From contig CP136065.1 in NCBI GenBank assembly GCA_032622095.1, positions 246,697,474-246,761,473 of the forward strand: DNA of 64,000 nt. The letters are read 5' to 3'. The translations under genes were made by a program, and so were the position numbers. The stretch is from Siphonodentalium dalli. Lineage: Eukaryota > Mollusca > Scaphopoda > Gadilida > Siphonodentaliidae. Position 1 is the stretch's first letter. Each line of letters opens with the position of its first letter. Below are positions 9,515-63,804 of the stretch, piece by piece. The notes under the pieces are model-generated. The model did not search any database and was not told the DNA's origin. It saw only the letters and a list, made by a program, of their open reading frames with translations.

Positions 9515-10029
9515 TTAACCTTTCCCTGTGCCAATGCATTCTCTTATATATGCAAGTCTCCCATAAGGAGCCTCGCATATATAAGAGAATGCATTGGCCT
9601 AACAATATTTACCTTGACCATGTCAGCCAGTGCATTCTCTTATACATGTATATGTGAGGCTCCCTATGGGTGACTCGCATATATCAGAGAATTCACTGGC
9701 ACAGGACCTTTAACCCTTTCAGTGCCAAGTCTGATTTTTGTATCAACCCATATTTCCTTGATAATTTTTCAAATTTATTGATTATAATAATGTGATACAT
9801 TGATGGAAAAAGCTCTAAGATTTCCTTGATAATTTTTCAAATTTATTGATTATAATAATGTGATACATTGATGGAAAGAGCTCTTAGAGCTCTTTCCATC
9901 AATGTATCACATTATTATAATCAATAAATTTGAAAAATTATCAAGGAAATATGGGTTGATACAAAAATTGGACTTGGCACTGAAAGGGTTAATGCTGCAC
10001 CAGCACAGCTCCCGCCATGAACAGGTTAA
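9515..10029. mobile_element. TTAA foldback MITE, family C, copy 1 (interrupted)
   Basis: It is bounded by TTAA at 9515 and 10026. The left half has two hairpin cassettes around 9528-9600 and 9620-9700. The family-C right end (TGCTGCACCAGCACAGCTCC...GGTTAA) appears only after 9993, because a family-D element (9710-9992) sits at the internal TTAA. Confidence 0.85.
9710..9992. mobile_element. TTAA foldback MITE, family D, copy 1
   Basis: Its ends are TTAACCCTTTCAGTGCCAAG and the inverse CTTGGCACTGAAAGGGTTAA. The arms fold back over about 90 bases around AGAGCTCTTAGAGCTCT near 9885. The left arm carries an extra direct repeat (9761-9816 repeated at 9826-9878). It is inserted at the TTAA of family-C copy 1. 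Confidence 0.9.
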
Positions 10030-11089
10030 TGTGTAATGAAAATCTACACAAAACTGCAGTGAAAAAAAAAACAGTGGAACGATCTCTTTGTTATTCAACT
10101 CATCTGAATGATTTGCTGTATAATTGTCCATGCTGAATCAGTTTGAACTCATCTTAGATTTCCTGAAAACTAGGCCCACATCAAAGCATAAAAGATGTTT
10201 AATGTTATACTGCACAATGATATCCAGTTACACTTTTAAAACTATTTCTTTCTCTTTATCTATTCCATCCTTCTATGTTCTATCTGTAATTAACCTCAGA
10301 CATCTTCATCTCAAGTCACGGAATTCCACACCATCATTGTATCCTCACTTCTCTTATGATATCTCTGTCAACATTGTTGTGAAATGTAATGCAGTTGACA
10401 CCCAACACACCTTAAAATTGCTATGTTATCTATGAATATTACAAATAATACCCTTGAAACTAAATCCAAAATATTTTATTCAATTACGTCATCAAATATT
10501 CCAATTTAGAGTTGAATAGAAGCATTTACTTTGTTCATAATTACTATCAAGTGAATGTTCTGCACTTTGTATCAAGTTGAATTACGACATGGTGTTGGCC
10601 AGAGGGTATTGCATGTGAGAGTGGGTGTTTCCATTGGAATTTCCAGCTGCACCCCCACCCTCCTAGAACCAGACTGCAATTTCCAGTGCAAATACCCCCT
10701 CCCCCATTTGTAGTTTTTCAATCTGGTACCTAAATCTTTTCAAAACACCCCTCTCCTATGGTTGGAAAATGTGCAACTGATGGTCTATTCAGTACACAAA
10801 ATTCACAATTATGACTTTTGGTCTAAAACCAACAAATTATACACTTAAAATAGTTGGAGAATCAAACAATCAGAACAATTTCCACCTATTTTTTGTTGAA
10901 ATTTCCAACTAATGTTGATTTAGACATGAAATTTCCAACTGTTGACAAATATTAAACTTGTTTCTTTCAAATGGCACTTTTAATTTTAAAAGTGTTATTT
11001 TAAACCCTAGATTCTAAATCAAAAGTAAAATAAGTTTTGCTATAATCAACCTGGAGCCCTAAATACATCTTAACCTCAAGAAATAAAAT
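10030..11089. repeat. Left flank of minisatellite, duplicated at 13321-14409
   Basis: Blocks such as GACACCCAACACACCTT, GAATATTACAAATAAT and AATGTTGATTTAGACATG are present here and again at 13355-13700 and 14140-14400. Several hundred bases flanking the minisatellite were therefore duplicated with it. No gene is recognised. Confidence 0.7.
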
Positions 11090-13320
11090 TCCACACCATC
11101 ACTGTATCCTCAGACGCCCTGAACCTCAAGTCACCGAATTCTACACCATCACCATATCCTTACTTCATTTAACCTCAGACACCCTGAACCTCACTCAAGT
11201 CACTGAATTCCACATTATCACCATATCCTTACTTCATTTAACCTCAGACACCCTGAACCTCACTCAAGTCACAGAATTCCACACCATCACCATATCCTTA
11301 CTTCATTTAACCTCAGACACCCTGAACCTCACTCAAGTCACCGAATTCCACATTATCACCATATCCTTACTTCATTTAACCTCAGACACCCTGAACCTCA
11401 CTCAAGTCACCGAATTCCACATTATCACCATATCCTTACTTCATTTAACCTCAGACACCCTGAACCTCACTCAAGTCACCGAATTCCACATTATCACCAT
11501 ATCCTTACTTCATTTAACCTCAGACACCCTGAACCTCACTCAATTCACCGAATTCCACATTATCACCATATCCTTACTTCATTTAACCTCAGACACCCTG
11601 AACCTCACTCAAGTCACCGAATTCCACATTATCACCATATCCTTACTTCATTTAACCTCAGACACCCTGAACCTCACTCAAGTCACCGAATTCCACATTA
11701 TCACCATATCCTTACTTCATTTAACCTCAGACACCCAGAACCTCACTCAAGTCACCGAATTCCACATTATCACCATATCCTTACTTCATTTAACCTCAGA
11801 CACCCTGAACCTCACTCAAGTCACCGAATTCCACATTATCACCATATCCTTACTTCATTTAACCTCAGACACCCTGAACCTCACTCAAGTCACCGAATTC
11901 CACATTATCACCATATCCTTACTTCATTTAACCTCAGACACCCTGAACCTCACTCAAGTCACCGAATTCCACACCATCACCATATCCTTACTTCATTTAA
12001 CCTCAGATGCCCTGAACCTCCAGTCACTGAATTCCACACCATCACCATATCCTTACTTCATTTAACCTCAGATGCCCTGAACCTCCAGTCACTGAATTCC
12101 ACACCATCACCATATCCTTACTTCATTTAACCTCAGATGCCCTGAACCTCCAGTCACTGAATTCCACACCATCACCATATCCTTACTTCATTTAACCTCA
12201 GATGCCCTGAACCTCCAGTCACTGAATTCCACATTATCACCATATCCTTACTTCATTTAACCTCAGATGCCCTGAACCTCCAGTCCCTGAATTCCACACC
12301 ATCACCATATCCTTACTTCATTTAACCTCAGATGCCCTGAACCTCCAGTCACTGAATTCCACATTATCACCATATCCTTACTTCATTTAACCTCAGACAC
12401 CCTGAACCTCACTCAAGTCACCGAATTCCACATTATCACCATATCCTTACTTCATTTAACCTCAGATGCCCTGAACCTCACTCAAGTCACCGAATTCCAC
12501 ATTATCACCATATCCTTACTTCATTTAACCTCAGACACCCTGAACCTCACTCAAGTCACCGAATTCCACATTATCACCATATCCTTACTTCATTTAACCT
12601 CAGACACCCTGAACCTCACTCAAGTCACCGAATTCCACACCATCACCATATCCTTACTTCATTTAACCTCAGATGCCCTGAACCTCCAGTCACTGAATTC
12701 CACACCATCACCATATCCTTACTTCATTTAACCTCAGATGCCCTGAACCTCCAGTCACTGAATTCCACACCATCACCATATCCTTACTTCATTTAACCTC
12801 AGATGCCCTGAACCTCCAGTCACTGAATTCCACACCATCACCATATCCTTACTTCATTTAACCTCAGATGCCCTGAACCTCCAGTCACTGAATTCCACAT
12901 TATCACCATATCCTTACTTCATTTAACCTCAGATGCCCTGAACCTCCAGTCACTGAATTCCACACCATCACCATATCCTTACTTCATTTAACCTCAGATG
13001 CCCTGAACCTCCAGTCACTGAATTCCACATTATCACCATATCCTTACTTCATTTAACCTCAGATGCCCTGAACCTCCAGTCACTGAATTCCACACCATCA
13101 CCATATCCTTACTTCATTTAACCTCAGATGCCCTGAACCTCCAGTCACTGAATTCCACATTATCACCATATCCTTACTTCATTTAACCTCAGACACCCTG
13201 AACCTCACTCAAGTCACCGAATTCCACATTATCACCATATCCTTACTTCATTTAACCTCAGATGCCCTGAACCTCACTCAAGTCACCGAATTCCACATTA
13301 TCACCATATCCTTACTTCCC
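11090..13320 (+). repeat. 65/69-bp minisatellite with alternating unit blocks
   Basis: The shared core is CATATCCTTACTTCATTTAA followed by CCTCAGA. Type A units (69 bp) contain ACCTCACTCAAGTCACCG. Type B units (65 bp) contain ACCTCCAGTCACTG. The order is A block (to ~12000), B block (~12000-12390), A block (~12390-12660), B block (~12660-13190), A block (to 13320). Roughly 33 units are present. The alternation indicates a higher-order duplication of A+B blocks. Confidence 0.95.
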
Positions 13321-14409
13321 TTATGACATATCTGTTAACATTGTAAAATGTAATGCAGTTGACACCCAACACAACTTGAAATTGCCATAATATTATCTAT
13401 GAATATTACAAATAATAAATACCCTTGAAACCGAATCCAATATAATTTGATTTAATTGCCTCATGAAATGTTCCAATATAGAGCTGCATAGAGGAATTGA
13501 TTTTATTCATAATTAGTAGCACTTTGTATCATGTTAAACATGAAATGCATTGATTTATATAATACTTGATAGTACTTCCTTATTTCACCCTCCCCCATGT
13601 AACAAAGTTATGGGTGGGTATTTCCAACTAATGTTGATTTAGACATGAAATTTCCAACTGTTGACAAATATTAAACTTGTTTCTTTCAAATGGCACTTTT
13701 AATATTAAAAGTGTTATTTTAAACCCTAGAATCTAAATCAAAAGTAAAATAAGTTTTGCTATAATCAACCTGGAGCCCTAAATACATCTTAACCTCAAGA
13801 AATAAAATTCCACACCATCACTGTATCCTCAGACGCCCTGAACCTCAAGTCACCGAATTCTACACCATCACCATATCCTTTCTTCATTTAACCTCAGACA
13901 CCCTGAACCTCACTCAAGTCATCGAATTCCACACCATCACCATATCCTTACTTCATTTAACCTCAGAGTCCCTGAACCTCACTCAAGTCACCGAATTCCA
14001 CACCATCACCATATCCTTACTTCATTTAACCTCAGGCTCAGACACCCTGAACCTCACTCAAGTCACCGAATTCCACATTATCACCATATCCTTACTTCCC
14101 TTATGACATATCTGTTAACATTGTAAAATTTAATGCAGTTGACACCCAACACACCTTGAAATTGCCATAATATTATCTATGAATATTACAAATAATAAAT
14201 ACCCTTGAAACCGAATCCAAAATATTTGATTTAATTGCATCATGAAATATTCCAATATAGAGGAATTGATTTTATTCATAATTAGCAGCAGGTGAATGTC
14301 CTGAACTTTGTATCATGTTAAACATGAAATGCATTTCTTTATATAGTACTTGATAGTACTTCCTTATAAATTATAACCCCCACTGTAACAAAGTTATGGG
14401 GGGTATAAT
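13321..14409. repeat. Duplicated flank with a short second minisatellite
   Basis: 13355-13560 and 14140-14360 are copies of one another and of 10380-10560. 13620-13890 repeats 10905-11165, and three to four minisatellite units recur at 13850-14100. The layout is a partial tandem duplication of flank plus array. No gene is present. Confidence 0.8.
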
Positions 14410-14664
14410 CAAGCCTTGAAATAGGGTGTCTGTCATTTGCAGAATGAGGTCCCCAGAGGGTGAATTTAGTGATGCTACCCCGCATAGCGGGGTAGCATCA
14501 CCAAATTCACCCTCTGGGGACCTCATTCTGCTTACACCTCAGCAGAATGAGGTTCACAGAGGGTGAATATGGTGATGCTAGCCTGCTATGCGGGGGTAGC
14601 ATCACTAAATTCACCCTCTGGGGACCTCATTCTGCAAATGACAGACACCCTATTTCAAGGCTTG
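14410..14664. mobile_element. hAT-like palindromic MITE, family M, copy 1
   Basis: The ends are CAAGCCTTGAAATAGGGTGT and its exact inverse. The 8-bp sequence GGTATAAT borders both sides. Internally the GAATGAGGTCCCCAGAGGG module and its inverse form two palindromes separated by TTACACCTCAG. Confidence 0.85.
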
Positions 14665-15442: not shown

Positions 15443-15795
15443 TAACCCTTTACCCAACAAAACGGCCAAAACCGGCCAAATAAAGCTTCAACAGCCTAAA
15501 ATATCTTCGGTCGGTCTCAATAGAACCATACAAATATGGATATCATTGGAACCGGCTCCTTGACCACATTGTGATAGTTACAGTTATGCCCTGTGCCAAT
15601 GCATTCTCTTATATATGCGAGTCGACCATAGGTCGCCTCGCATATATAAGAGAATGCATTGGCCTAAAAAAAAAATTGTAATTTTTAATGTGTTAAGCCA
15701 ATGCATTCTCTTATATATGCGAGGCGACCTATGGTCGACTCGCATATATAAGAGAATGCATTGGCACAGGGCCGTTCTGTTGGGTAAAGGCTTAA
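15443..15795. mobile_element. TTAA foldback MITE, family A, copy 1
   Basis: The left end reads TAACCCTTTACCCAACA and the right end TTGGGTAAAGGCTTAA. Two hairpin cassettes, 15597-15662 and 15699-15766, lie in opposite orientation around an A/T-rich spacer. The left arm carries the family-A segment CCTAAAATATCTTCGGTC. Confidence 0.9.
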
Positions 15796-19337: not shown

Positions 19338-19718
19338 TTAACCCTTCCATGACTGGAGCTTCCTGTGCCAATGCTTTCTCTTATATATGCCAGTATCCCG
19401 TAGGGAGCCTTGCATTTACAAGAGAATACATTGGCCTAACATTATTTACCTTGACCTTGTAAGCCAGTGCATTTTCTTATTTTTGGGAGACTCGCATTTA
19501 TATAAGAGAATGTACTGGCACAGGATCTTTATTAGTGTAAACATATTTTATTCCAATCATAATAACATATATACATTTGACAAAGTGTTGACAATAAAAC
19601 AGAATAGGATAAATGATTGTTGGATTGGAAAAGGGATTAAACAACAAGCCCAAGGGCTTTTGTTAAGTTTGCTCCCTTTATTGCTGCACCAGCACAGCTC
19701 CCATCATGAAAGGGTTAA
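19338..19718. mobile_element. TTAA foldback MITE, family C, copy 2
   Basis: It starts TTAACCCTTCCATGACTGGAG and ends CATGAAAGGGTTAA. It has two hairpin cassettes (19371-19436 and 19466-19523). About 145 bases of unrelated DNA (19535-19680) interrupt the element just before its right end. Confidence 0.8.
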
Positions 19719-19725: not shown

Positions 19726-20128
19726 TTAACCCTTTACCCAACAAACCGGCCAAAACCGGCCAAATAAAGCTTCAACAGCCTAAAATATCTTCGGTCTGTC
19801 TCAATAACACCATACAAATATGGATATCATTGGAACCGGCTCCTTGACCACATTGTGATGGTTACAGTTATGCCCTGTGCCAATGCATTCTCTTATATAT
19901 GCGAGTCAACCATAGGTCGCCTCGCATATATAAGAGAATGCATTGGCCTAAAAACAGATATTTTTTTTTAACACTTTTTACCATTTTTTCTTACATTCTT
20001 TAACAATTTTATAAATTTTAATGTGTTAAGCCAATGCATTCTCTTATATATGCGAGGCGACCTATGGTCGACTCGCATATATAAGAGAATGCATTGGCAC
20101 AGGGCCCTTCTGTTGGGTAAAGGGTTAA
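19726..20128. mobile_element. TTAA foldback MITE, family A, copy 2
   Basis: Complete copy, from TTAACCCTTTACCCAACAAA to TGTTGGGTAAAGGGTTAA. The left arm carries ACCGGCCAAATAAAGCTTC. Two opposed hairpin cassettes (19878-19949 and 20030-20100) flank an A/T spacer. Confidence 0.95.
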
Positions 20129-20763: not shown

Positions 20764-21312
20764 CGTATCACTACTATTATTATGGACCGTATCACTACTA
20801 TTATTATGGGCCATATCACTACTATTATTATGGGCCGTATCACAACTATTATTATGGGCCGTATCACTACTATTATTATGGGCCGTATCACTACTATTAT
20901 TATGGGCCATATCACTACTATTATTATGGACCATATCACTACTATTATTATGGGCCATATCACTACTATTATTATGGGCCATATCACAACTATTATTATG
21001 GACCGTATCACTACTATTATTATGGACCATATCACTACTATTATTATGGACCGTATCACTATTATTATTATGGGCCTTATCACTACTATTATTATGGACC
21101 ATATCACTACTATTATTATGGACCGTACCACTACTATTATTATGGACCGTATCACTATTATTATTATGGGCCTTATCACTACTATTATTATTATGGGCCT
21201 TATCACAACTATTATTATGGGCCGTATCACAACTATTATTATGGGCCGTATCACTACTATTATTATGGGCCTTATCACTACTATTATTATGGGCCATATC
21301 AATACTATTATT
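20764..21312 (+). repeat. 24-bp minisatellite, small block (~23 units)
   Basis: The unit is TATCACTACTATTATTATGG followed by GCCA, with GACC/GGCC, CAT/CGT and CTAC/CAAC variants. Because 24 is divisible by three and the unit lacks stops in several frames, it creates long overlapping open frames on both strands. None resembles a protein. Confidence 0.97.
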
Positions 21313-23999
21313 AGCTCAACTTTACTTTGTAAAGTTTGAGCTATTGCCATGGCTTTGTCGTCCGTCGTCCGTGTGTACGTGTGTACGTAAGGCGTCAACA
21401 ATGCAGTCTACAGGTCGTACCTTTGGTCGGATCATTATGAAATTTGTCATAGCTGTTGACATCAACATTTAGACCAGAATGATTAATTTTGGGGTCATTC
21501 GGTAAAAAAACATGGCCGCCAGTGGCCATCTTGCATTTCAAAATTCAATCCATTAGCACGGGCTACAGGGCGTACTGTTTGTCTGATCGTCATGAAATTT
21601 GTCATGGATGTTAATATTGACATGTAGATGGGAACGAGTAATTTTGGGGTCATTCGGCCCAAAAACATGGCCGCCAGCAGCCATCTTGGATTTTACTCTT
21701 TGTATGACTAAATTCTTTAGCACGGGCTACAGGTCGTACTTTTAGTCTGATCATCATAAAATTTGTCAAGAATGTTAATAATGACATGTAGATGGGAACG
21801 AGTCATTTTGGGGTCATTCGGCCAAAAAACATGGCCGCCAGCAGGCATCTTTGATTTCACTCTTTGTATGACTAAATCCTTTAGCACGGGCTACAGGTCG
21901 TACCTTTAGTCCGATCATCATAAAATTTGTCATGGCTGTTGAAATTGGAATGTAGATGGGAACGAGTCATTTTGGGGTCATTCGGACAAAAAACATGGCC
22001 GCCAGCGGCCATCTTGGATTTCAAAATTCAATCCATTAGCACGGGCCACAGGTCGTACTGTTCGTCTGATCATCATGAAATTTGTCATGGATGTTAATAT
22101 TGACATGTAGATGGGAACGAGTAATTTTGTGGTCATTCGGCCAAAAAACATAGCGGCCAGCAGCCATCTTGGATTTTACTCTTTGTATGACTAAATTCTT
22201 TAGCACGGGCTACAGGTCGTACCTTTAGTCTGATCATCATCAAATTTGTCATGGATGTTAATATTGACATGTAGATGGGAACGAGTAATTTTGGGGTCAT
22301 TCGGCCAAAAAACATGGCCGCCAGCAGCCATCTTGGATGTTACTCTTTGTATGACTAAATCCTTTAGCACGGGCTACAGGTCCTACTTTTAGTCTGATCA
22401 TCATAAAATTTGTCATGGCTGTTGAAATTGGAATGTAGATGGGAACGAGTAATTTTGGGGTCAGTCGGCCAATAAACATGGCCGCCAGTGGCCATCTTGG
22501 ATTTCAAAATTTAATCCATTAGCACGGGCCACAGGTCGTACTGTTCGTCTGATCATCATGAAATTTGTCATGGATGTTAACAATGACATGTAGATGGGAA
22601 CGAGTAATTTTGGGGTCATTCGGCCAAAAAACATAGCGGCCAGCAGCCTTCTTGGATTTTACTCTTTGTATGACTAAATTCTTTAGCACGGGCTACAGGT
22701 CGTACCTTTAGTCTGATCATCATCAAATTTGTCATGGTTGTTAATATTGACATGTAGATGGGAACGAGTAATTTTGGGGTCATTCGGCCAAAAAACATGG
22801 CCGCCAGCAGCCATCTTGGATGTTACTCTTTGTATGACTAAATCCTTTAGCACGGGCTACAGGTCCTACTTTTAGTCTGATCATCATAAAATTTGTCATG
22901 GCTGTTGAAATTGGAATGTAGATGGGAACGAGTAATTTTGGGGTCATTCGGCCAATAAACATGGCCGCCAGTGGCCATCTTGGATTTCAAAATGTAATCC
23001 ATTAGCACGGGCCACAGGTCGTACTGTTCGTCTGATCATCATAAAATTTGTCATGGATGTTAACAATGACATGTAGATGGGAACGAGTAATTTTGGGGTC
23101 ATTCGGCCAAAAAACATGGTCACCAGCAGCCATCTTGGATTTTACTCTTTGTATGACTAAATCCTTTAGCACGGGCTACAGGTTGTACCTTTAGTCTGAT
23201 CATCATAAAATTTGTCGTGAATGTTAATAATGACATGTAGATGGGAACGAGTCATTTTGGGGTCATTCGGCAGAAAAACATGGCCGCCAGCAGCCATCTT
23301 GGATTTTACTCTTTGTATGACTAAATCCTTTAGCACGGGCTACAGGTCGTACATTTAGTCTGATCATCATAAAATTTGTCATGGCTGTTGAAATTGGAAT
23401 GTAAATGGGAACGAGTCATTTTGGGGTCATTCGAACAAAAAACATGGCCGCCAGTGGCCATCTTGGATTTCAAAATTTAATCCATTAGCATGGGCCACAG
23501 GTCGTACTGTTCGTCTGATCATCATGAAATTTGTCATGGTTGTTAATATTGGATTTTACTCTTTGTATGACTAAATTCTTTAGCATGGGCTACAGGTCGT
23601 ACCTTTAGTCTGATCGTCATAAAATTTGTCATAGATGTTAATAATGACATGTAGATGGGAACGAGTTATTTTGGTGTCATTCGGCCAAAAAACATGGCCG
23701 CCAGCAGCCATCTTGAATTTTACTCTTTGTATGACTAAATTCTTTAGCATAGGCTACAGGTCGTACCTTTAGTCTGATCGTCATAAAATTTGTCATGGAT
23801 GTTAACGATGACATGTAGATGGGATACAATCATTTTGGGGTCATACGGCCGAAAACATGGCCGCCAGCAGCCATCTTGGATTTTACTTTTCTCTTCATGT
23901 CTATAAACTAGTATTAGACATTCAACTTTCCACATTCCTAATCGCTCCATTGACTGTAATACATTAAATTATTCACTTTCCAAGTTGAGCTACAGTGTC
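21313..23999 (+). repeat. ~161-bp 'catggccgcc' tandem array (family R2)
   Basis: About 15 units are marked by ACATGGCCGCCAG, CACGGGCTACAGGTCGTAC and GATCATCATAAAATTTGTCA. Some units repeat as trimers: the sequence near 22133-22480 recurs 483 bases later at 22616-22962. The block lies between the two 24-bp arrays. The left border has TAGCTCAACTTTAC (21311) and the right has CCAAGTTGAGCTA (23980-23992), which are short inverted ends. A related fragment with the same right border lies at 32844-33300. Confidence 0.9.
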
Positions 24000-24010: not shown

Positions 24011-27000
24011 CATTATGGACCGTATCACTACTATTATTATGGGCCGTATCACAACTATTATTATGGACCGTATCACTACTATTATTATGGGCCATATCAC
24101 TACTATTATTATGGACTGTATCACTACTATTATTATGGGCCATATCACTACTATTATTATGGGCCATATCACTACTATTATTATGGGCCGTATCATTACT
24201 ATTATTATGGGCCATATCACTACTATTATTATGGGCCATATCACTACTATTACTATGGGCCGTATCACTACTATTATTATGGGCCATATCACTACTATTA
24301 TTATGGGCCATATCACTACTATTATTATGGGCCATATCACTACTATTATTATGGGCCTTTTCACAACTATTATTATGGGCCATATCACTACTATTATTAT
24401 GGACTGTATCACTACTATTATTATGGGCCATATCACTACTATTATTATGGGCCATATCACTACTATTATTATGGGCCGTATCACTACTATTATTATGGGC
24501 CTTATCACTACTATTATTATGGACCGTATCATTACTATTATTATGGGCCATATCACAACTATTATTATGGACCGTATCACTACTATTATTATGGGCCGTA
24601 TCTCTACTATTATTATGGGCCGTATCACTACTATTATTATGGGCCATATCACAACTATTATTATGGGCCATATCACTACTATTATTATGGGCCTTATCAC
24701 TACTATTATTATGGGCCATATCACTACTATTATTATGGGCCATATCACTACTATTATTATGGGCCATATCACAACTATTATTATGGACCATATCACTACT
24801 ATTATTATGGGCCATATCACTACTATTATTATGGGCCATATCACTACTATTATTATGGGCCATATCACTACTATTATTATGGGCCGTATCACTACTATTA
24901 TTATGGGCCATATCACTACTATTATTATGGGCCATATCACTACTATTATTATGGGCCATATCACTACTATTATTATGGGCCATATCACTACTATTATTAT
25001 GGGCCGTATCACTACTATTATTATGGGCCGTATCACTACTATTATTATGGGCCTTATCACTACTATTATTATGGACCGTATCATTACTATTATTATGGGC
25101 CATATCACAACTATTATTATGGACCGTATCACTACTATTATTATGGGCCGTATCTCTACTATTATTATGGGCCGTATCACTACTATTATTATGGGCCATA
25201 TCACAACTATTATTATGGGCCATATCACTACTATTATTATGGGCCATATCACTACTATTATTATGGGCCATATCACAACTATTATTATGGACCGTATCAC
25301 TACTATTATTATGGGCCATATCACTACTATTATTATGGGCCATATCATTACTATTATTATGGGCCATATCACTACTATTATTATGGGCCATATCACTACT
25401 ATTACTATGGGCCGTATCACTACTATTATTATGGGCCATATCACTACTATTATTATGGGCCATATCACTACTATTATTATGGGCCATATCACTACTATTA
25501 TTATGGGCCTTTTCACAACTATTATTATGGGCCATATCACTACTATTATTATGGACTGTATCACTACTATTATTATGGGCCATATCACTACTATTATTAT
25601 GGGCCATATCACTACTATTATTATGGGCCGTATCACTACTATTATTATGGGCCTTATCACTACTATTATTATGGACCGTATCATTACTATTATTATGGGC
25701 CATATCACAACTATTATTATGGACCGTATCACTACTATTATTATGGGCCGTATCTCTACTATTATTATGGGCCGTATCACTACTATTATTATGGGCCATA
25801 TCACAACTATTATTATGGGCCATATCACTACTAATATTATGGGCCTTATCACTACTATTATTATGGGCCATATCACTACTATTATTATGGGCCATATCAC
25901 TACTATTATTATGGGCCATATCACAACTATTATTATGGACCATATCACTACTATTATTATGGGCCATATCACTACTATTATTATGGGCCATATCACTACT
26001 ATTATTATGGGCCATATCACTACTATTATTATGGGCCATATCACTACTATTATTATGGGCCTTATCACTACTATTATTATGGACCATATCACAACTATTA
26101 TTATGGGCCATATCACTACTATTATTATGGGCCATATCACTACTATTATTATGGGCCATATCACAACTATTATTATGGACCGTATCACAACTATTATTAT
26201 GGGCCATATCACTACTATTATTATGGGCCATATCACTACTATTATTATGGGCCATATCACTACTATTATTATGGGCCATATCACAACTATTATTATGGAC
26301 CATATCACAACTATTATTATGGGCCATATCACTACTATTATTATGGGCCATATCACTACTATTATTATGGGCCATATCACAACTATTATTATGGACCGTA
26401 TCACTACTATTATTATGGGCCATATCACTACTATTATTATGGGCCATATCACAACTATTATTATGGGCCATATCACTACTATTATTATGGGCCTTATCAC
26501 AACTATTATTATGGGCCATATCACAACTATTATTATGGGCCATATCACTACTATTATTATGGGCCTTATCACTACTATTATTATGGGCCGTATCACTACT
26601 ATTATTATGGGCCATATCACTACTATTATTATGGGCCTTATCACTACTATTATTATGGGCCATATCACAACTATTATTATGGACCGTATCACTACTATTA
26701 TTATGGGCCATATCACTACTATTATTATGGGCCATATCACAACTATTATTATGGGCCGTATCACTATTATTATGGGCCATATCACAACTATTATTATGGG
26801 CCATATCACTACTATTATTATGGGCCATATCACTACTATTATTATGGGCCATATCACAACTATTATTATGGGCCGTATCACTATTATTATGGGCCATATC
26901 ACAACTATTATTATGGGCCATATCACTACTATTATTATGGGCCATATCACTACTATTATTATGGACCGTATCACTACTATTATTATGGGCCGTATCACTA

Positions 27001-27380
27001 CTATTATTATGGGCCGTATCACTACTATTATTATGGGCCATATCACAACTATTATTATGGGCCATATCACTACTATTATTATGGGCCATATCACTACTTT
27101 TATTATGGGCCGTATCACTACTATTATTATGGGCCATATCACTACTATTATTATGGGCCATATCACTACTATTATTATGGGCCATATCACAACTATTATT
27201 ATGGGCCTTTTCACAACTATTATTATGGGCCATATCACAACTATTATTATGGGCCTTTTCGCAACTATTATTATGCGCCATATCACAACTATTATTATGG
27301 ACCATATCACTACTATTATTATGGGCCATATCACTACTATTATTATGGACCGTATCACAACTAATATTATGTGCCGTTTC
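24011..27380 (+). repeat. 24-bp minisatellite, large block (~140 units) with 1152-bp higher-order repeat
   Basis: Same unit as at 20764. Rare variants recur at fixed distance: TACTATGGGCC at 24251 and 25403 (1152 bases apart, 48 units), and TCTCTACTATTATT at 24601, 25153 and 25753 (552 and 600 apart, 23 and 25 units). A 21-bp short unit occurs at 26761 and 26878. Apparent open frames of over 1100 codons in several frames on both strands are a consequence of the stop-free 24-bp unit. Confidence 0.97.
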
Positions 27381-27600
27381 ACATGATAATACCTTAATTT
27401 GTAGATAGGGCGTTAATTATTCATCACAACTCTGACATTTCAGGTGTCTTTCTATGCATCGCATCTTAAGTCTCTGAATTGAAGCATTAAATTTGCACTA
27501 AAAACTAATCAGTATCTGATGACTGTCAGGTAATTAGTTTCCCCAAGATAAATGTCTCACAGTAACGTATACATTGCATCAATGAGAGAGGTGCATTACA
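27381..27600. other. Unique spacer
   Basis: No gene, repeat or site is recognised between the minisatellite and the next MITE. Confidence 0.5.
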
Positions 27601-27863
27601 TTAACCCTTCCATGACAGGAGCTTCCTGAAATTTTGCGAAAACTCTGTGCCAATGCATTCTCTTATATATGCAAGGCTCTCATAGGGTGCCTCGCATATA
27701 TCAGAGAATGCATTGGCCTGACAATATTTACCTTTATCTTGTAAGCCAGTGCATTCTCTTATATATGCGAGGATCCCTATGGGAGACTCGCATATATAAG
27801 AAATTGCACAGGCACAAGATCTTTAATGCTGCACCAGCGCAGCTCCCGTCATGAAAGGGTTAA
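27601..27863. mobile_element. TTAA foldback MITE, family C, copy 4 (complete)
   Basis: It starts TTAACCCTTCCATGACAGGAG and ends CCCGTCATGAAAGGGTTAA. The first cassette (27650-27718) has CCAATG/CATTGG stem bases and the second (27746-27812) CCAGTG/CACAGG. It serves as the uninterrupted reference for the nested copies at 9515 and 36030. Confidence 0.9.
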
Positions 27864-29075: not shown

Positions 29076-29080
29076 GTTGC

Positions 29081-29447
29081 CCTGTGCCAATGCATTCTCT
29101 TATATATGCGAGTCGACCATAGGTCGCCTCGCATATATAAGAGAATGCATTGGCCTAACAATTTTTTATCATTTTTTTAAAATAAATGTTTCTTACAATT
29201 TTTAGGACATAAAATAAAAAACATCCATTACCCTGCAGGGTGCCCCATACATATATAGAAGCATATAGAAGAGTGTCGTCTGCTCATGTTTGTCTGGGGC
29301 TCTGTATGGGTGAAATTATAAAATTATTAAAGAATACAAGAAAAAATTATTAAAATTGTAAAAAATTGTTAGGCCAATGCATTCTCTTATATATGCGAGG
29401 CGACCTATGGTCGACTCGCATATATAAGAGAATGCATTGGCACAGGG
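29081..29447. mobile_element. Paired hairpin cassettes without TTAACCC ends
   Basis: CCCTGTGCCAATGCATTCTC starts a perfect cassette (29089-29154), and its inverse closes at 29373-29440 with TTGGCACAGGG. The ~220-bp spacer differs from those of families A and B (contains CCCTGCAGGGTGCCCC). No TTAA termini are present, so the outer ends were lost or this is a separate family. Confidence 0.8.
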
Positions 29448-29454
29448 TAAAAAA

Positions 29455-29787
29455 ATCCCGGGTCTTGGGGGACTGAATCAACCGGTATGTTAGATGAGTA
29501 GCTCCCTTCAACAACTAACCACATTCTTCGTTAGGTTAGGAACGATTAAAGCCAGCCATCTCTATTTCCTTTGATTCCGTAGCTCGAGACTTTATGCAGA
29601 AGTGTATTGTGCGGCGCGGTGTCAAATGCTTTTGAGAAATAGAGAATGGCTATGTCTGTTTGGATGTCTTTATCGTATGATTGGAGCAGGTCGTCGGATG
29701 TTGTTAAGAACATGTGATTGGTTCCTTGTGACAATGACCTCATTGGCGTCACTTAGCATTGCACACAAACTAATTAAATGCTGCTGA
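29455..29787 (-). pseudogene. Broken non-LTR retrotransposon reverse transcriptase fragment
   Basis: On the minus strand, translation gives SQGTNHMFLTT, then DIAILYFSKAFDTAPHNTLL, then SYGIKGN, followed after two in-frame stops (29546-29548 and 29531-29533) by VVEGSYSSNIPVDSVPQ. This order matches the fingers/palm part of jockey- or CR1-type reverse transcriptases: the DFSKAFDxVPH motif, the YGI..G motif, SFLT.R, and (V)PQG. Only about 110 codons remain, and the YADD region and endonuclease are missing. It lies in the intron upstream of the first recognised transporter exon, in the opposite orientation. It is a dead fragment. Confidence 0.85.
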
Positions 29788-33758: not shown

Positions 33759-34030
33759 GGTGCAGCATTAAAGATCCTGTGCCAGTGCATTCTCTGATAA
33801 ATGCGAGTCGCCCATAGGGAGCCTCACATATATAAGAGAATGCACTGGCTTACAAGATCAAGGTAAATATTGTTAGGCCAATGTGTTCTCTTATATATGC
33901 GAGGCTCCCTTGCATATATAAAAGAATGCACTGGCTTACACGGTCAAGGTAAATATTGTTAGGCCAATTTATTTTCTTATATATGCAACTTATGCAAGGC
34001 TCCCTATGAGAGACTTCTACACTTGTATTA
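33759..34030. mobile_element. Family C MITE, copy 6, rearranged
   Basis: GGTGCAGCATTAAAGATCCTG is followed by three hairpin cassettes (33783-33848, 33880-33930, 33965-34020). The third repeats the linker GGTCAAGGTAAATATTGTTAGG. Outer TTAACCC ends are missing. Confidence 0.7.
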
Positions 34031-34362: not shown

Positions 34363-34838
34363 TTAATCCTTTAAGCCAGGTCCGATTTTTGTATCAACCC
34401 ATATACCCTGTGCCAATGCATTCTCTTATATATACGAGTCGACCATAGGTCGCCTCGCATATATAAGAGAATGCATTGGCCTAACAATTTTTCATCATTT
34501 GTTATTATTTGTTGCAATTTTTTTTACATTTTAATAATTTTTTCTTATATTCGTTAACAGACTTATTTTGTAGGTTTAGTGCCAGGGAATCTAGCTTCCG
34601 TTTTTCATGGGCATCAAAATTATTACTATGAATACTTGGTGATAGTTTTGAGTTATAACATGCCCCTAAGGTATTATCCAGTTTGTTTTTAAATTTGCTA
34701 TAGCATGCTTAAGCATACCCAATTCAACCCAAAAAAATAAATAACAATTTATTTTTTATTTGTTATTTTTTTTAGGGCCGATTTTACAGACCGTGAATTA
34801 GGGCTGGTGAGATCGGCCCCTGGCACTGAAAGGGTTAA
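34363..34838. mobile_element. TTAA foldback MITE, family B, copy 1
   Basis: The left end is TTAATCCTTTAAGCCAGGTC and the right end CCCTGGCACTGAAAGGGTTAA. It has a single full hairpin cassette (34413-34482), and a long A/T-rich middle ends in AGATCGGCCCCTGG. It begins 30 bases after the exon 3 donor. Confidence 0.85.
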
Positions 34839-35161: not shown

Positions 35162-35547
35162 TTAACCCTTTACCCAACAGAAGGGCCCTGTGCCAATGCA
35201 TTCTCTTATATATGCGAGTCGACCATATATAAGAGAATGCATTGGCTTAACACATTAAAAATTATAAAATTGTTAAAGAATGTAAGAAAAAATGGTAAAA
35301 AGTGTTAAAAAAAGATTTTTTTTAGGCCAATGCATTCTCTTACATATGCGAGGCGACCTATGGTCGACTCGCATATATAAGAGAATGCATTGGCACAGGG
35401 CATAACTGTAACTATCACAATGTGGTCAAGGAGCCGGTTCCAATGATATCCATATTTGTATGGTTTTATTGAGACAGACCGAAGATATTTTAGGCTGTTG
35501 AAGCTTTATTTGGCCGGTTTTGGCCGGTTTGTTGGGTAAAGGGTTAA
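35162..35547. mobile_element. TTAA foldback MITE, family A, copy 3 (inverted)
   Basis: It reads TTAACCCTTTACCCAACAGA to GTTTGTTGGGTAAAGGGTTAA, in the opposite orientation to copy 2. The first cassette has lost one half of its loop and stem (35208-35251); the second (35325-35397) is complete. Confidence 0.92.
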
Positions 35548-36029: not shown

Positions 36030-36545
36030 TGATTCATATATAAGAGAATAATATTTAACTTGACCTTGTAAGCCACTACCAGTGCATTCTCTTATATATG
36101 CGGGGCTCCCTATGGAAGACTTGCATATATAAGAGAATGCACTGGCACAGTATCTTTAACCCTTTACCCAACAGAAGGGCCCTGTGCCAATGCATTCTCT
36201 TATATATGCGAGTCGACCATAGGTCGCCTCGCATATATAAGAGAATGCATTGGCTTAACACATTAAAAATTATAAAATTGTTAAAGAATGTAAGAAAAAA
36301 TGGTAAAAAGTGTTAATTTTTTTTTTTTAGGCCAATGCGTTCTCTTATATATGCGAGTCGACCATAGGGCATAACTGTAGCTATCACAATGTGGTCAAGG
36401 AGCCGGTTCCAATGATATCCATATTTGTATGGTTCTATTGAGACAGACCGAAGATATTTTAGGCTGTTGAAGCTTTATTTGGCCGGTTTTGGCCGTTTTG
36501 TTGGGTAAAGGGTTAATGCTGTTCCACCATCATGAAAGTGTCAAG
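36030..36545. mobile_element. Family C MITE, copy 7 (interrupted)
   Basis: The linker ACTTGACCTTGTAAGCC and a hairpin cassette (36080-36147) precede GGCACAGTATCTTTAA. Its right end (TTAATGCTGTTCCACCATCATGAAAG) follows 36513. Family-A copy 4 is inserted between, at the same internal TTAA that is occupied by family D in copy 1. Confidence 0.85.
36156..36516. mobile_element. TTAA foldback MITE, family A, copy 4
   Basis: Ends are TTAACCCTTTACCCAACAG and TTGTTGGGTAAAGGGTTAA. The first cassette (36189-36254) is intact; the second is truncated to its first half (36331-36367). It is nested in family-C copy 7. Confidence 0.92.
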
Positions 36546-38084: not shown

Positions 38085-38327
38085 TTAACCCTTTGAGTGC
38101 CAGGTCGATTTTTGTATCAACCCATATACCCTGTGCCAATGCATTCTCTTATATATGCGAGTCGACCATAGGTCGCCTCACATATATAAAAGAATGCATT
38201 GGCCTAACAATTTTTATTTTTTTTTACAATTTTTTACAATTTTAATAATTTATTCTTATATTCTTTAACAGACTAATTTTGTAGGTTTAGGGCCGATGAG
38301 ATCGGCCCCTGGCACTCAAAGGGTTAA
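38085..38327. mobile_element. TTAA foldback MITE, family B, copy 2
   Basis: Ends are TTAACCCTTTGAGTGCCAGG and CCTGGCACTCAAAGGGTTAA. It has one hairpin cassette (38138-38202) and a T-rich spacer. It begins 34 bases after the exon 5 donor, mirroring copy 1 after exon 3. Confidence 0.92.
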
Positions 38328-40580: not shown

Positions 40581-40834
40581 CAAGCCTTGAAATAGCGTGT
40601 CTGTCATTTGCAGAATGAGGTTCCCAGAGGGTGAATTTAGTGATGCTACCCCGCATAGCGGGCTAGCATCACCAAATTCACCCTCTGGGAACCTCATTCT
40701 GCTGAGGTGTAAGCAGAATGAGGTCCCCAGAGGGTGAATTTGGTGATGCTAGCCCGCTATGCGGGGTAGCATCACTAAATTCACCCTCTGGGGACCTCAT
40801 TCTGCAAATGACAGACACGCTATTTCAAGGCTTG
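40581..40834. mobile_element. Family M MITE, copy 6 (complete, short form)
   Basis: It opens CAAGCCTTGAAATAGCGTGT and closes with the exact inverse. The 8-bp duplication ATCCTATG flanks it at 40573-40580 and 40835-40842. Internally there are two palindromes, as in copy 1. Confidence 0.95.
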
Positions 40835-41361: not shown

Positions 41362-41762
41362 TTAACCCTTTACCCAACAAACCGGCCAAAAACGCCCAAA
41401 TAAAGCTTCAACAGCCTAAAATATCTTCGGTCTGTCTCAATAAAACCATACAAATATGGATATCATTGGAACCGGCTCATTGACCACATTGTGATGGTTA
41501 CAGTTATGCCCTGTGACAATGCATTCTCTTATATATGCGAGTCGACCATAGGTCGCCTCGCATATATAAGAGAATGCATTGGCCTAAAAAAAAATCTGTT
41601 TTTAACACTTTTTACCATTTTTTCTTACATTCTTTAACAATTTTATAATTTTTAATGTGTTAAGCCAATGCATTCTCTTATATATGCGAGGCGACCTATG
41701 GTCGACTCGCATATATAAGAGAATGTATTGGCACAGGGCCCTTCTGTTGGGTAAAGGGTTAA
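41362..41762. mobile_element. TTAA foldback MITE, family A, copy 5
   Basis: Complete copy with both termini and two opposed cassettes (41517-41582 and 41665-41731). It is close to copy 2 in sequence. Confidence 0.95.
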
Positions 41763-48543: not shown

Positions 48544-48772
48544 TACAGTAATGCCCTAATTAATCGACTCCTTTAACCACAGCAGAATTATGGGTAACTT
48601 TTCAGGATTTAGTCGGAAATATGGCTTGTTGCCATTCATCGGAAAGCTTTCCCCGAGAGCTTTCCGATGAATGGCAACAAGCCATATTTCCGACTAAATC
48701 CTGAAAAGTTACCTGTAATTCTGCTGTGGTTAAAGGAGTCGATTAATTAGGGCTTTACTATACATGTCCTAA
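48544..48772. mobile_element. Tc1/mariner-like MITE, family P, copy 5 (complete)
   Basis: A near-perfect ~110-bp foldback from TACAGTAATGCCCTAATTAA to TTAGGGCTTTACTATA. The centre is AGCTTTCCCCGAGAGCT. TA borders are consistent with mariner-type insertion. Confidence 0.92.
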
Positions 48773-49032: not shown

Positions 49033-49363
49033 TTAACCCTTTACCCAACAAACCGGCCAAAAACCGCCAAATAAAGCTGCAACAGCCTAAATTATCTTGG
49101 GTCTGTCTCAATAAAACCATACAAATATGGATATCATTGGAACCGGCTCATTGACCACATTGTGATGGTTACAGTTATGCCCTGTGCCAATGCATTCTCT
49201 TATATACACTTTTTACCATTTTTTCTTACATTCTTTAACAATTTTATAATTTTTAATGTGTTAAGCCAATGCATTCTCTTATATATGCGAGGCGACCTAT
49301 GGTCGACTTGCATATATAAGAGAATGCATTGGCACAGGGCCGTCCTGTTGGGTAAAGGGTTAA
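49033..49363. mobile_element. TTAA foldback MITE, family A, copy 6
   Basis: Both ends are intact. The first cassette is cut to its left arm (49185-49206), with its loop and part of the spacer deleted; the second (49267-49334) is intact. Its final TTAA is also the first TTAA of the next element. Confidence 0.92.
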
Positions 49364-51861: not shown

Positions 51862-52103
51862 TTAACCCTTTGAGTGCCAGGTCCGATTTTTGTATCGACC
51901 CATATACCCTGTGCCAATGCATTCTCTTATATATGCGAGTCGACCATAGGTCGCCTCGCATATATAAGAGAATGCATTGGCCTAACCCAAAAAAAAAAAA
52001 AAATTTAAAAAAAGGAAAATTCATTTTTTTTATTTTTTTTAGGGCACTCTACAGACCATAAATTAGGGCCGATGAGATCGGCCCCTGGCACTAAAAGGGT
52101 TAA
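51862..52103. mobile_element. TTAA foldback MITE, family B, copy 3
   Basis: TTAACCCTTTGAGTGCCAGG to CCTGGCACTAAAAGGGTTAA, with one complete cassette (51914-51981), an A-rich spacer and GGGCCGATGAGATCGGCCCC near the right end. Confidence 0.93.
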
Positions 52104-52334: not shown

Positions 52335-52712
52335 TTAACCCTTTACGGCTTTACCCAACAAAACCGGCCAAATAAAGCTTCAACAGCCTAAAATATCTTC
52401 GGTCTGTCTCAATAAAACCATACACATATGGATATCATTGGAACCGGCTCCTTGACCACATTGTGATAGTTACAGTTATGCCCTGTGCCAATGCATTCTC
52501 TTATATATGCATATATAAGAGAATGCAATGGCCTAAAAAAAAATCTTTTTTTAACACTTTTTAAACATTTTTTCTTACATTCTTTAACAATTTTATAATT
52601 TTTAATGTGTTAAGCCAATGCATTCTCTTATATGTGCGAGGCGACCTATGGTCGACTCGCATATATAATAGAATGCATTGGCACAGGGCCCTTCTGTTGG
52701 GTAAAGGGTTAA
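52335..52712. mobile_element. TTAA foldback MITE, family A, copy 7
   Basis: The element lies inside the second copy of a ~70-bp direct repeat whose first copy (52225-52300) is empty. The empty copy reads CAGTATTAAAGGTC; the filled copy reads CAGTATTAACCC...GGGTTAAAGGTC. The site is therefore a single TTAA duplicated on insertion. Confidence 0.95.
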
Positions 52713-52784: not shown

Positions 52785-53410
52785 GAATTTATGCCATAAA
52801 ATATGATTTAAAATACTAAAATTCATCACCAAATTGAAACGTCTGTGTCTCAGATGATGCCCATAGAGAAATAGAAAACAGCTGAAATCATAGAAAGATT
52901 TCCTCCGTTATTGCTCCAGAATTCAAAAAATATATTTTCAATGGAAGAGGAACAACTCTATATCTTCAGATATAGAATTATTCCCCTTCCATTGAAAATA
53001 ATGAACACAGAATACTAGTAGGTATCTCAACAAAAACAACATGTTCTCAGTTTATTACACCGAATAAGTTGATAATACAATGTTTTGGAGCTTCCTCTTT
53101 CATATGGTGTATATATGGCATATATTTTATATAAAATTATCTGGCGGTTCGAAATTTTAACCCTTTGAGTGCCAGGGGCCGATCTAATCGGCCCTAAACC
53201 TACACAATAAGTCTGTTAAAGAATATAATAAAATATATTAAAATTGTAAAAAAACAAAAAAATTGTTAGGCAAATGCATTCTCTTATATATGCGAGGCGA
53301 CCTATGGTCGACTCGCATATATAAGAGAATGCATTGGCACAGGGTATATGGGTTGATACAAAATCGGCCTGGCACTCAAAGGGTTTAAGGGCAATAAATC
53401 TCATTCATGT
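52785..53410. mobile_element. MITE family G, copy 3, interrupted by family B
   Basis: Matches copy 1 from TTTATGCCATAAAATATGAT to ATCTGGCGGTTCGAAATT. The left end is missing. Family-B copy 4 is inserted at the TTAA of its right terminus. Confidence 0.75.
53157..53388. mobile_element. TTAA foldback MITE, family B, copy 4 (inverted)
   Basis: TTAACCCTTTGAGTGCCAGG, a spacer, then one cassette (53269-53338) and CCTGGCACTCAAAGGGTTTAA. Orientation is opposite to copies 1-3. Confidence 0.92.
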
Positions 53411-53569: not shown

Positions 53570-54178
53570 TACAGTAATACCCCTAAATAATCGACTTAAA
53601 CCCTTTACCCAACAGAAGGGCCCTGTGCCAATGCATTCTCTTATATATGCGAGTCGACCATAGGTCGCCTCGCATATATAAGAGAATGCATTGGCTTAAC
53701 ACATTAAAAATTATAAAATTGTTAAAGAATGTAAGAAAAAATGGTAAAAAGTGTTAAAAAAAGATTTTTTTTTAGGCCAATGCATTCTCTTATATATGCG
53801 AGGCGACCTATGGTCGACTCGCATATATAAGAGGAATGCATTGGCACAGGGCATAACTGTAACTATCACAATGTGGTCAAGGAGCCGGTTCCAATGATAT
53901 CCATATTTGTATGGTTCTATTGAGACAGACCGAAGATATTTTAGGCCTGTTTGAAGCTTTATTTGGCCGGTTTGTTGGGTAAAGGGTTAACCACAGGAGA
54001 ATTATGGGTAATTTTTTCAGGATTTAGTTGGAAATATGGCTTGTTGCCATTTATCGGAAAGCTGACCGAGAGCTTTCCGATGAATGTCAACAAGCCATAT
54101 TTCCAACTAAATCCTGAAAAACTTACCCCATAATTCTCCTGTGGTTAAGGAGTCGATTATTTAGGGCATTACTGTATG
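53570..54178. mobile_element. Tc1/mariner-like MITE, family P, copy 6, split by family A
   Basis: The left tip TACAGTAATACCCCTAAATA is separated from ACCACAGGAGAATTATGGG by family-A copy 8. The right arm (54065-54178) is complete and ends TTAGGGCATTACTGTA. Confidence 0.9.
53596..53990. mobile_element. TTAA foldback MITE, family A, copy 8
   Basis: Complete, with two opposed cassettes (53628-53693 and 53778-53847). It is inserted into the TTAA of the CGACTCCTTAACCACAG motif of family-P copy 6. Confidence 0.93.
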
Positions 54179-60309: not shown

Positions 60310-60455
60310 TTAAACCTTTCAGTGCCAAGTCCGATTTTTGTATCAACCCATATTTCCTTGATAATTTTTCAAATTTATGGATTATTTTGAAATTTGAAAA
60401 ATGATCAAGGAAATATGGGTTGATACAAAAATGGACTTGGCACTGAAAGGGTTAA
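60310..60455. mobile_element. TTAA foldback MITE, family D, copy 2 (short)
   Basis: TTAAACCTTTCAGTGCCAAG to CTTGGCACTGAAAGGGTTAA. Arms of ~70 bases fold directly. It lacks the internal direct repeat of copy 1. Confidence 0.92.
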
Positions 60456-60859: not shown

Positions 60860-61292
60860 TTAACCCTATCATGATGGGAGCTGCGCTGGCACAACAATAA
60901 AGACCCTGTGCCAATGCAGTTGACCATAGGTCGCCTCGCATATATGAGAGAATGCATTGGCCCAACAATTTTTTATAAATTTTTCTTACATCCTTTTAAC
61001 AATTTTTATTATAAATTTTTCTTACATTCCTTATCAATTTTTATTATTTTTTCTTACATTCCTTATCAATTTTTATCATTTTTTTCTTACGTTCTCAGTG
61101 ACGTTCTTTTACAATTTTTATCATTTTTTATCATTATTTCTTACATTCTTTTCACAATTTTTTATCATTTTATTTTCATTTTTTCTAACATTTTCTTACA
61201 AAAAATAATATAAATTTGTTAGGCCAATGCATTCTCTTATATATGCAAAAAATTTGCAAAATTTCAGGAAGCTCCAGACATGAACGGGTTAA
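60860..61292. mobile_element. Mosaic TTAA MITE: family-C ends, A/B-type hairpins
   Basis: Outer parts are family C (TTAACCCTATCATGATGGGA; AAATTTCAGGAAGCTCC...GGGTTAA). The remaining cassette half has the A/B loop (GACCATAGGTCGCC), and the T-rich spacer with TTTTTCTTACATTC is A/B-like but expanded by tandem repetition. Confidence 0.85.
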
Positions 61293-62011: not shown

Positions 62012-62095
62012 ATAATGCCTTAAATAATCGAATCCTTAACCACAGCAGAATTGTTGGTAATTTTTCAGGATTTAGTCGGAAAATTGGTACAGATG
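62012..62095. mobile_element. Family P MITE, left-end fragment (copy 8)
   Basis: TAATAATGCCTTAAATAATCG, ACCACAGCAGAATTG and CAGGATTTAGTCGG match the family-P left arm, then the match stops. Confidence 0.8.
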
Positions 62096-62354
62096 GGTCA
62101 CCTGACCAGGAGTAAAATGACACGGGTACTATCACAGGATAGGTGCTGTTGATCTCAAATGACTTAAGAGGCACTAATAATTAGCAATAAAGAGCGTTTC
62201 TTATCAACTTAAAAGATAGATGTAACTTTATCCAGAGAGTCATGCAATAGGTGCTGTTTACCCCAGATGATTAATAATTATTTTAAATGACTTGGAATTG
62301 CCACTAATAAATTACGCATTCTTCACCCCAGCAACGCCGGGTACCCCAGCTAGT
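62096..62354 (+). mobile_element. Helitron-like 3' end
   Basis: The stretch ends AACGCCGGGTACCCCAGCTAG followed by T. This matches the common animal pattern of a GC-rich short hairpin just before CTAG/T. The 5' boundary is unknown; a family-P remnant adjoins at 62095. Confidence 0.55.
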
Positions 62355-62953: not shown

Positions 62954-63224
62954 TTAACCCTTTCATGAGGTTTATGGCAGGAGCTTCGTTGGTGCAGCAT
63001 TAATTACCCTGTGATTCTCTTATATAAGTCATCTCCCATGGGGAGCCTTGCATATATAAGAGAATGCACTGGCTTACAGGGTCAATGTAAATATTGTTAG
63101 ACCAATGTATTCTCTTAAATATAGGAGCCTAGGAGGCTCCTGTGGGAGACTCACATATATAAGAGAATGCATTGGCACAGGGTTTTTGCAAAATTTCAGG
63201 AAGCTCCGGTCATGGAATGGTTAA
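62954..63224. mobile_element. TTAA foldback MITE, family C, copy 10
   Basis: TTAACCCTTTCATGAGG to GGTCATGGAATGGTTAA. Two cassettes carry the C-type loop (CTCCCATGGGGAG; GGCTCCTGTGGGAG). Confidence 0.9.
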
Positions 63225-63312
63225 TAATGCCAGATGTGATTTGACACAATAAAACTACTCATTGTACATTGTGTATGCCAAACAAATTATTAGATAAAAC
63301 TTATCAGTGTGA

Positions 63313-63405
63313 GCAAGCCTGAATATAGTGTGTCTGACATTTGCAGAATGAGGTCCCCAGAAGGTGAATTTAGTGAACTACATTCTCACACCATATCATC
63401 ATCAT
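63313..63405. mobile_element. Family M MITE, left-end fragment
   Basis: CAAGCCTGAATATAGTGTG and GAATGAGGTCCCCAGAAGG, then cut off shortly before family-A copy 9. Confidence 0.8.
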
Positions 63406-63804
63406 TTAACCCTTTACCCAACAAACTGGCCAAAACCGGCCAAATAAAGCTTCAACAGCCTAAAATATCTTCGGTCTGTCTCAATAGAACCATACAAATA
63501 TTGATATCATTGGAACCGGCTCCTTGACCACATTGTGATAGTTATAGTTATGCCCTGTGCCAATGCATTCTCTTATATATGCGAGTCGACCATAGGTCGC
63601 CTCGCATATATAAGAGAATGCATTGGCCTAAAAAAAATCTTTTTTTAACACTTATTACAATTTTTCTTACATTCTTTAACAATTTTATAATTTTTAATGT
63701 GTTAAGCCGATGCATTCTCTTATATATGCGAGGCGACCTATGGTCGACTCGCATATATAAGAGAATGCATTGGCACAGGGCCTTTCTGTTGGGTAAAGGG
63801 TTAA
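63406..63804. mobile_element. TTAA foldback MITE, family A, copy 9 (complete)
   Basis: TTAACCCTTTACCCAACAAA to TGTTGGGTAAAGGGTTAA, with opposed cassettes at 63560-63625 and 63709-63775. Confidence 0.95.

Follow-up and report, generated by a model that had tools for sequence, protein, structure and literature searches.

Miniature inverted-repeat transposable elements (MITEs) of the piggyBac type are non-coding, occupy TTAA targets and end in CCCTTT-like sequences, and foldback elements, a single family with modular arms, carry long inverted inner repeats. Here we analyze a 64-kb window, the whole stretch of Siphonodentalium dalli DNA at C5:246,697,474-246,761,473 (36% GC), in which a 67-bp hairpin that we call the cassette recurs inside short elements of several kinds. 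We find that one hairpin module is common to at least four families, A to D, whose ends are unrelated and whose target sites are of two kinds, and we consider it probable that this module was passed between MITE families and multiplied by them.

Families A, B and C resemble piggyBac-type MITEs in their TTAA, their ends and their absence of coding capacity and differ from them by the shared inner hairpin; the long inverted inner repeats are alike in foldback elements, but here the module is common to several families. The V domain, a conserved inner domain in V-SINEs (SINE, short interspersed element) and in the MER6 MITE that was multiplied by its new carrier, offers a further likeness, as an inner domain held by two kinds of element and amplified in this way (PMC6887750). 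The shared piece there is a SINE body in one mammalian Tc1/mariner-derived MITE (PMC6887750), whereas here it is a hairpin, carried in a single genome by at least four MITE families of two target classes, with near-identical module sequence in three families. Molluscan satellites within mobile elements have short shared repeats, and the junctions of one satellite map inside a palindrome, but the satellites are tandem monomers, partly in Helitron-type elements, while our cassettes are paired inverted hairpins in TTAA or TA elements (PMC5139131, PMC7492417). Judged from titles and abstract openings, the literature holds no report of a hairpin common to MITE families, and none of five sequence strings turned up in the texts searched; IMG/VR holds no exact match to the cassette stem.

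The stem described in the original prediction lies at 73 places in the window with at most seven mismatches on both strands, from 9531 to 63773, which bears out the several dozen arms it had announced; its hairpin is real, and the length of about 65 bp gives way to a usual unit of 67 bp, consisting of a 26-bp arm, 15 bp and a second 26-bp arm. Between the arms lies TCGACCATAGGTCGC, which pairs with itself as CGACC-ATA-GGTCG to form a 5-bp inner stem with an ATA loop and one T/C mismatch. Folded as DNA, a single cassette reaches -33.2 kcal/mol versus -5.37 for shuffles (standard deviation, SD, 1.96), or 14 SD lower. Across the whole genome (2.23 Gb, nine contigs), stem arms with at most three mismatches number 243,953 + 242,793 = 486,746, which at two arms per cassette makes about 243,000 cassettes, and the stem pattern read backwards gave 1 + 0 places at the same threshold; the recurrence of the stem is not chance.

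To define the extent of the module, we compared six family-side consensuses (A-left, A-right, B, D, C-left and C-right), setting cassette orientation by likeness to CCCTGTG and dropping 10 of 168 cassettes with unclassified outer flanks. At the outer boundary, CCTGTG is identical in all six, agreement falls to 0.67 one base outward and to 0.13-0.47 farther out, and on the inward side positions 1, 3, 4 and 7 of CYTAACA are common to all six. The CCTGTG abuts exactly in 24/31 A-left, 39/44 A-right, 22/25 B, 38/43 D, 6/8 C-left and 3/7 C-right cases, and the linkers beside the cassette are alignable among A, B, D and a C subtype. Given this sharp outer CCTGTG and shared inner linker, the module is discrete outward and fades inward: it comprises (C)CCTGTG, the 67-bp hairpin and then an AT-rich linker.

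All three kinds of terminus named in the original prediction are present in the window, A, B and C at 18, 11 and 18 places with 3, 4 and 3 mismatches, respectively, the loose B and C patterns overlapping each other. A elements, about 400 bp long and bounded by TTAA, hold two cassettes between a left part of 154 bp and a right part of 31 bp, and their terminal 21-mer occurs at 101,887 genome places at no more than two mismatches, a limit that admits both ends. Over the window and fetched loci, four arms were counted in 15 of 20 A elements and three in the other 5, as expected from the claim that A usually holds two opposite cassettes; 16 of the 20 have an exact TTAA at both ends, partly by choice, as the pattern started with TTAA. 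Because its two cassettes are inverted, a whole A element (41362..41762) folds mainly as one long hairpin. B elements also lie at TTAA, hold a single cassette and account for 22,758 left arms in the genome. C elements, likewise at TTAA, are older and varied and hold an older version of the cassette, whose copies differ by 8.5-8.9 bases on average; four arms in 6 of the 11 rows judged to be real C agree with the two opposite cassettes also predicted for this family. Copies of A to C measure about 140-920 bp, and the 11 open reading frames (ORFs) of at least 130 aa in the window lie in tandem repeats (10) or overlap an A element (1); A, B and C have the TTAA ends of piggyBac-type MITEs and, judged by element length and these frames, none of which was searched against a family library, no transposase of their own. 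The elements of the window are as follows.

9515..9709, + strand: part of a C element with two older-type cassettes, split by a B-like element and resuming at 9989-10029
9710..9992, no strand: cassette-free B-like palindrome, sitting in a C copy at its inner TTAA
15442..15795, + strand: A, two cassettes (15596-15662 and 15698-15764)
15596..15662, + strand: modal 67-bp cassette with 26-bp arms, T/C mismatch, 5-bp inner stem and ATA loop, the one folded as DNA
19338..19718, + strand: C, four arms
19726..20128, + strand: A, two cassettes, TTAA at each end
27601..27863, + strand: C, two cassettes (27650-27716 and 27746-27812)
29077..29460, no strand: damaged D copy, two cassettes 287 bp apart with a D-type middle, right flank with a D-type inner end
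33782..33989, no strand: C fragment with cassettes
34368..34838, + strand: long damaged B copy, one cassette (34413-34479)
35162..35547, - strand: A, two cassettes, one shortened
36156..36516, - strand: A at the inner TTAA of an older C copy, of which 36079-36145 and the part from 36513 onward are left (27813-27863 shows this part of C uninterrupted)
38085..38327, + strand: B, one cassette (38136-38202)
41362..41762, + strand: A, four stem arms, the copy used for folding
49033..49363, + strand: A, first cassette partly deleted
51862..52103, + strand: B, one cassette
52335..52712, + strand: A, first cassette shortened, left end altered
53157..53387, - strand: B, one cassette
53597..53990, - strand: A, two cassettes
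60310..60455, no strand: B-like palindrome without cassette
60860..61292, + strand: C subtype with A/B/D-type loop, long AT-rich linker and two arms left, a possible donor form (similar copy at L008:1450-2373)
62954..63224, + strand: C, cassettes partly damaged
63406..63804, + strand: A, two cassettes

Both nested elements, the A at 36156-36516 and the B-like palindrome at 9710-9992, are flanked by TTAA at the inner TTAA of C copies, which supports TTAA transposition and indicates that those C copies came first. The copy similar to the possible donor form, at L008:1450-2373, is a 924-bp C-type element with a non-repetitive stretch between AT-rich linkers, perhaps the remnant of a longer element. 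As a separate observation on layout, exact stem copies at C1:727,804-909,680 are spaced by about 14.5 kb and then about 11.2 kb, and these cassette segments seem to be large tandem arrays.

Family D, which was absent from the original prediction, has the ends TGTGACCCGCCATATCAAATCC and not TTAA, with 26,599 arms in the genome; the double cassette of its damaged copy in the window spans 29087-29440. In 20 of 24 copies the left flank ends in TA, and the flanks match over 2 bp in 23 of 24 and over 3 bp in 0 of 24, a 2-bp match that is weak alone because TA is so common that swapped flanks also agree at 0.73. D shows the 2-bp TA duplication of a TA-target (Tc1/mariner-like) MITE, and, with its other ends and its TA target, the cassette is carried by two target classes.

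The cassettes of these families are barely distinguishable. The consensus cassette reads the same in A, B and D at all 67 of its positions, and 82 of 142 copies are letter-identical to the consensus (A 53/75, B 13/25, D 16/42). Mean distances between families (A-B 1.23, A-D 1.30, B-D 1.72) are what the within-family values (A 0.80, B 1.66, D 1.79) give, so there is no fixed difference among the three; a permutation test of between minus within distance gave 0.27 (p=0.003), which in our view reflects the unequal diversity of the families, lowest in A. Six sets of identical cassettes each span more than one family. In a cassette tree that left aside cassettes without a clear family label, labels change 30 times versus a minimum of 3 and an average of 35.4 under shuffling (5 of 200 shuffles were as low), and A clusters, with 14 changes versus 24.7 in shuffles (0 of 500), which speaks against full mixing; the tree rests on 67 columns, with 46 of 58 inner forks unresolved. 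With 30 changes below 35.4 and A clustered, the cassette tree is mixed and not random. Thus, of the comparison of cassettes with termini that had been proposed, the incongruence materialized and full mixing did not, and the suggested module moving between piggyBac-like families is upheld in that unrelated ends share it, while the sharing proves wider than TTAA, since D has a TA target.

One locus, L011, may preserve a trace of such a transfer. It holds three cassettes 520 bp apart, of which the middle one (L011:9346-9412) continues outward as the adjoining D copy (429/433 identical) and inward as a C copy (447/452); inside the cassette, position 23 has the D base, whereas at seven further differing positions, between 29 and 65, the base is that of C. 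This middle cassette is a recombinant linking D to C, of the form expected from unequal crossing over within the outer arm or at its edge, and shows at this one locus a route by which a cassette can join one family's end to another's core.

We propose that the module arose in the older C lineage, as two C copies with the A/B/D-type loop and linker suggest, and that the founders of A, B and D may have captured it in the course of repair or template switching that the hairpin made easier, for which the one recombinant offers support. The module would then have been copied by whatever transposases move those ends and, in the weakest step, might have persisted by aiding, in cis, the multiplication of source copies. 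Several observations weigh against this account. Capture by A or D is not seen directly, as no empty ancestor was found: the predicted empty A form (joined flanks) and the predicted empty D form each gave 0 matches at no more than three mismatches, with one form per family and a D pattern rich in T/A runs. The evidence for the direction of transfer is that two C copies have a similar loop and linker, and linkers rich in AT are easy to align; the L011 recombinant was noticed by reading, and a single base, position 23, puts the switch inside the cassette. Shared variants are as rare in the arms of D and B (1/106 and 0/52) as in the cassette, and cassette-free palindromic families are numerous too, so that no benefit of the cassette is shown.

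A less probable alternative is that the hairpin assists transposition or copying in cis, as a host-factor site, a fork block or a means of pairing ends, with its carriers out-multiplying other elements. We compared shared variants, defined as those in at least three copies and taken as inherited from source copies, with recurrent mutation possible, using loci L055-L114, which were selected on contig C1 for their exact termini and are biased to young, intact copies; the overlapping loci L002, L004 and L006 and the A locus L066, with one terminus, were dropped or flawed. Among 39 A copies (arm counts are for 28 of these, each with at least two arms), shared variants occupy 0 of 134 cassette columns versus 20 of 266 others (p=0.0003; arms 13/185); among 24 D copies the figures are 0/134 versus 7/326 (p=0.11), and for B (25 copies) the cassette has 0/67, the left arm 0/52 and the rest 52/130. 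The last figure is inflated because six rows without a recognized right end (L096, L104, L105, L107, L112 and L113) bring in foreign or unaligned sequence, which leaves the cassette and left-arm figures untouched. Pooled, the cassette has 0/335 and the arms 14/343 (p=0.0001), a difference driven by A alone. Private variants behave otherwise: in A they occur at 29/4745 in the cassette versus 63/6944 in the arms (p=0.09) and 100/9900 in all outside positions (p=0.018), in D at 35/2991 versus 102/7500 (p=0.50), and in B at 16/1567 versus 94/4341 in the rest (p=0.003), which those six rows make unreliable, B's own left arm being lower still at 8/1295. Once inserted, cassettes change at about the rate of the sequence around them, and, given the lack of shared variants alongside this ordinary decay, the cassette seems to be retained in source copies just as their ends are.

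The absence of shared variants from the cassette favors a cis-acting aid, as does full carriage: arms are present in 20 of 20 B and 24 of 24 D copies found by termini, exact A arms without C in the next two bases occur at only 9 places, of which all 8 inspected hold cassettes. By pattern count alone, exact D arms followed by seven T, an A and then no C in two bases occur at 22 places. Complete carriage, however, is also expected from cassette-bearing founders, the arms of D and B are just as constant, and ends of different target classes mean that no single transposase explains the effect. Cassette-free families have multiplied too, which argues against the module being required: a cassette-free relative (9710-9992 and 60310-60455) equals B up to CAACCCATAT and diverges where the cassette begins, and its pattern matches 21,777 genome places at no more than two mismatches, an upper bound for cassette-free B because the pattern is two letters away from B with cassette; among the matches listed, cassette-free B places are exact, within the first 39.5 Mb of C1. 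In 264 kb, 25 of 43 TTAA palindromes hold no arm (rows overlap; shuffled control 1). A stronger form, in which the hairpin is a portable amplification signal that acts in cis as a host-factor site or copying structure, serves different transposase superfamilies and by its capture lets a MITE reach tens of thousands of copies, seems to us distinctly doubtful. A further palindrome without cassette, the inverted TTAACCACAGCAGAATTATGGG, occurs at 48573-48733 and 53987-54148 in the window and at L014, L015, L019 and L027, in several copies, some of which adjoin A.

It is unlikely that the families descend from a single element whose core stayed in place while it exchanged its ends, so that terminal repeats moved and not the hairpin. 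The linkers alignable among A, B, D and the C subtype suggest that more than the hairpin may be shared, as this explanation would have it, but the B end also occurs without the cassette in its many-copy relative, which fits a core arriving in B, and D differs from A, B and C in target as well as in ends.

Gene conversion among hundreds of thousands of cassettes, which would keep them alike, we regard as quite improbable. It would accommodate the absence of a fixed difference among A, B and D and the one recombinant, but there is no clear removal of private mutations, and of 18 mutations in 26 A elements 0 were common to both cassettes of an element, so that no conversion was seen within elements.

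Very improbable, too, is the explanation that the double cassette is a transposon of its own, with CCCTGTG...CACAGGG ends, that inserted into other MITEs. Its sharp common outer end, the inverted ends in A, C and D, and the D flanks TTTTTTTA ... TAAAAAAA, as a TA duplication would give, are in its favor; however, there is no matching duplication at A or C junctions, and B has one end only. In a 200-kb sample of 20 stretches of 10 kb on contigs C1 to C4, placed regardless of content, all 42 cassette clusters lay in an A-D context and none stood alone; 41 were tagged and one, L022, which reads as a truncated long B, was placed by reading, under a loose test (any A-D tag no more than 420 bp away counted, and L011:6352 bore a weak one). 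Together with the 0 matches to the empty A and D patterns, one form each, on which we rejected an independent transposon, this indicates that the cassette does not behave like a free transposon today.

Compensated stem changes were found at pairs 4, 29 and 30, in one copy at pair 5 and in two at pair 23, all in C-type cassettes, after 15 cassette pairs of length other than 67 bp had been dropped. Changes on both sides of a pair fill 26 cells versus 6.9 in shuffles, whereas pairs with a double change number 5 versus 3.9 (matched in 151 of 500 shuffles); as the cells count inherited changes, the hairpin form lasted between the C and the A/B/D types, which does not imply selection on inserted copies. 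The least probable explanation, a source of hairpin RNA or small interfering RNA (siRNA) serving host or elements, draws on the strong folding of one cassette and one whole A element and on the 26 cells, but these cells lie in C-type cassettes and may be inherited, double-change pairs hardly exceed the shuffles, the decay of inserted copies is about as fast as usual, and in the window Rfam gives no match at its gathering threshold. The suggested selection for a host or siRNA structure is accordingly not supported, private mutations not being clearly rarer in the cassette (A p=0.09, D p=0.50), and a host or RNA function through purifying selection on inserted copies was set aside, as private mutations lend it little support.

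With regard to the enzymes, the PF13843 (DDE_Tnp_1_7) profile has at least 128 matches in the genome, many with open frames, with 116 of 649 candidates scored; these show that piggyBac elements are present. Among sixteen piggyBac loci, ends such as TTAACCCTTTATCTGC and the B-like TTAACACGTTGAGTGCCGG occur, several loci being without a recognized end; none of the ends equals those of A, B or C, and in about 1 kb on each side of the domain no cassette stem occurs at no more than six mismatches. A transposase link of the cassette finds no support in the stretches read of these 16 loci, none of which holds the stem. Twelve piggyBac loci, for example C3:134062619-134063773, match the profile in two pieces, with a 584-aa open frame in 10 of the 12.

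MITEs are sorted and explained by their ends, and here nearly the same core, with about 487,000 arms, occurs with different ends and targets. This allows one to ask whether the multiplication of short elements is influenced by inner structure as well as by what a transposase recognizes, and suggests that the interior of DNA transposons, like the domains of SINEs, moves from family to family. If the module is indeed portable, the success of MITEs would be set partly by an exchangeable core and not by ends alone. For repeat annotation, clustering on inner sequence would merge four families.

The window also contains repeats of other kinds. A 24-bp tandem repeat at 24012-27382 (about 141 copies) and 20764-21313 (about 23) is open in several frames, with ORFs of more than 1100 aa, and a 69-bp tandem repeat lies at 11125-13318 (about 33 copies) and 13844-14098 (about 4). 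Another hairpin-like repeat of about 103 bp (GCAGAATGAGGTCC...) occurs at 14439-14635 and 40610-40805, in about two tandem copies each.

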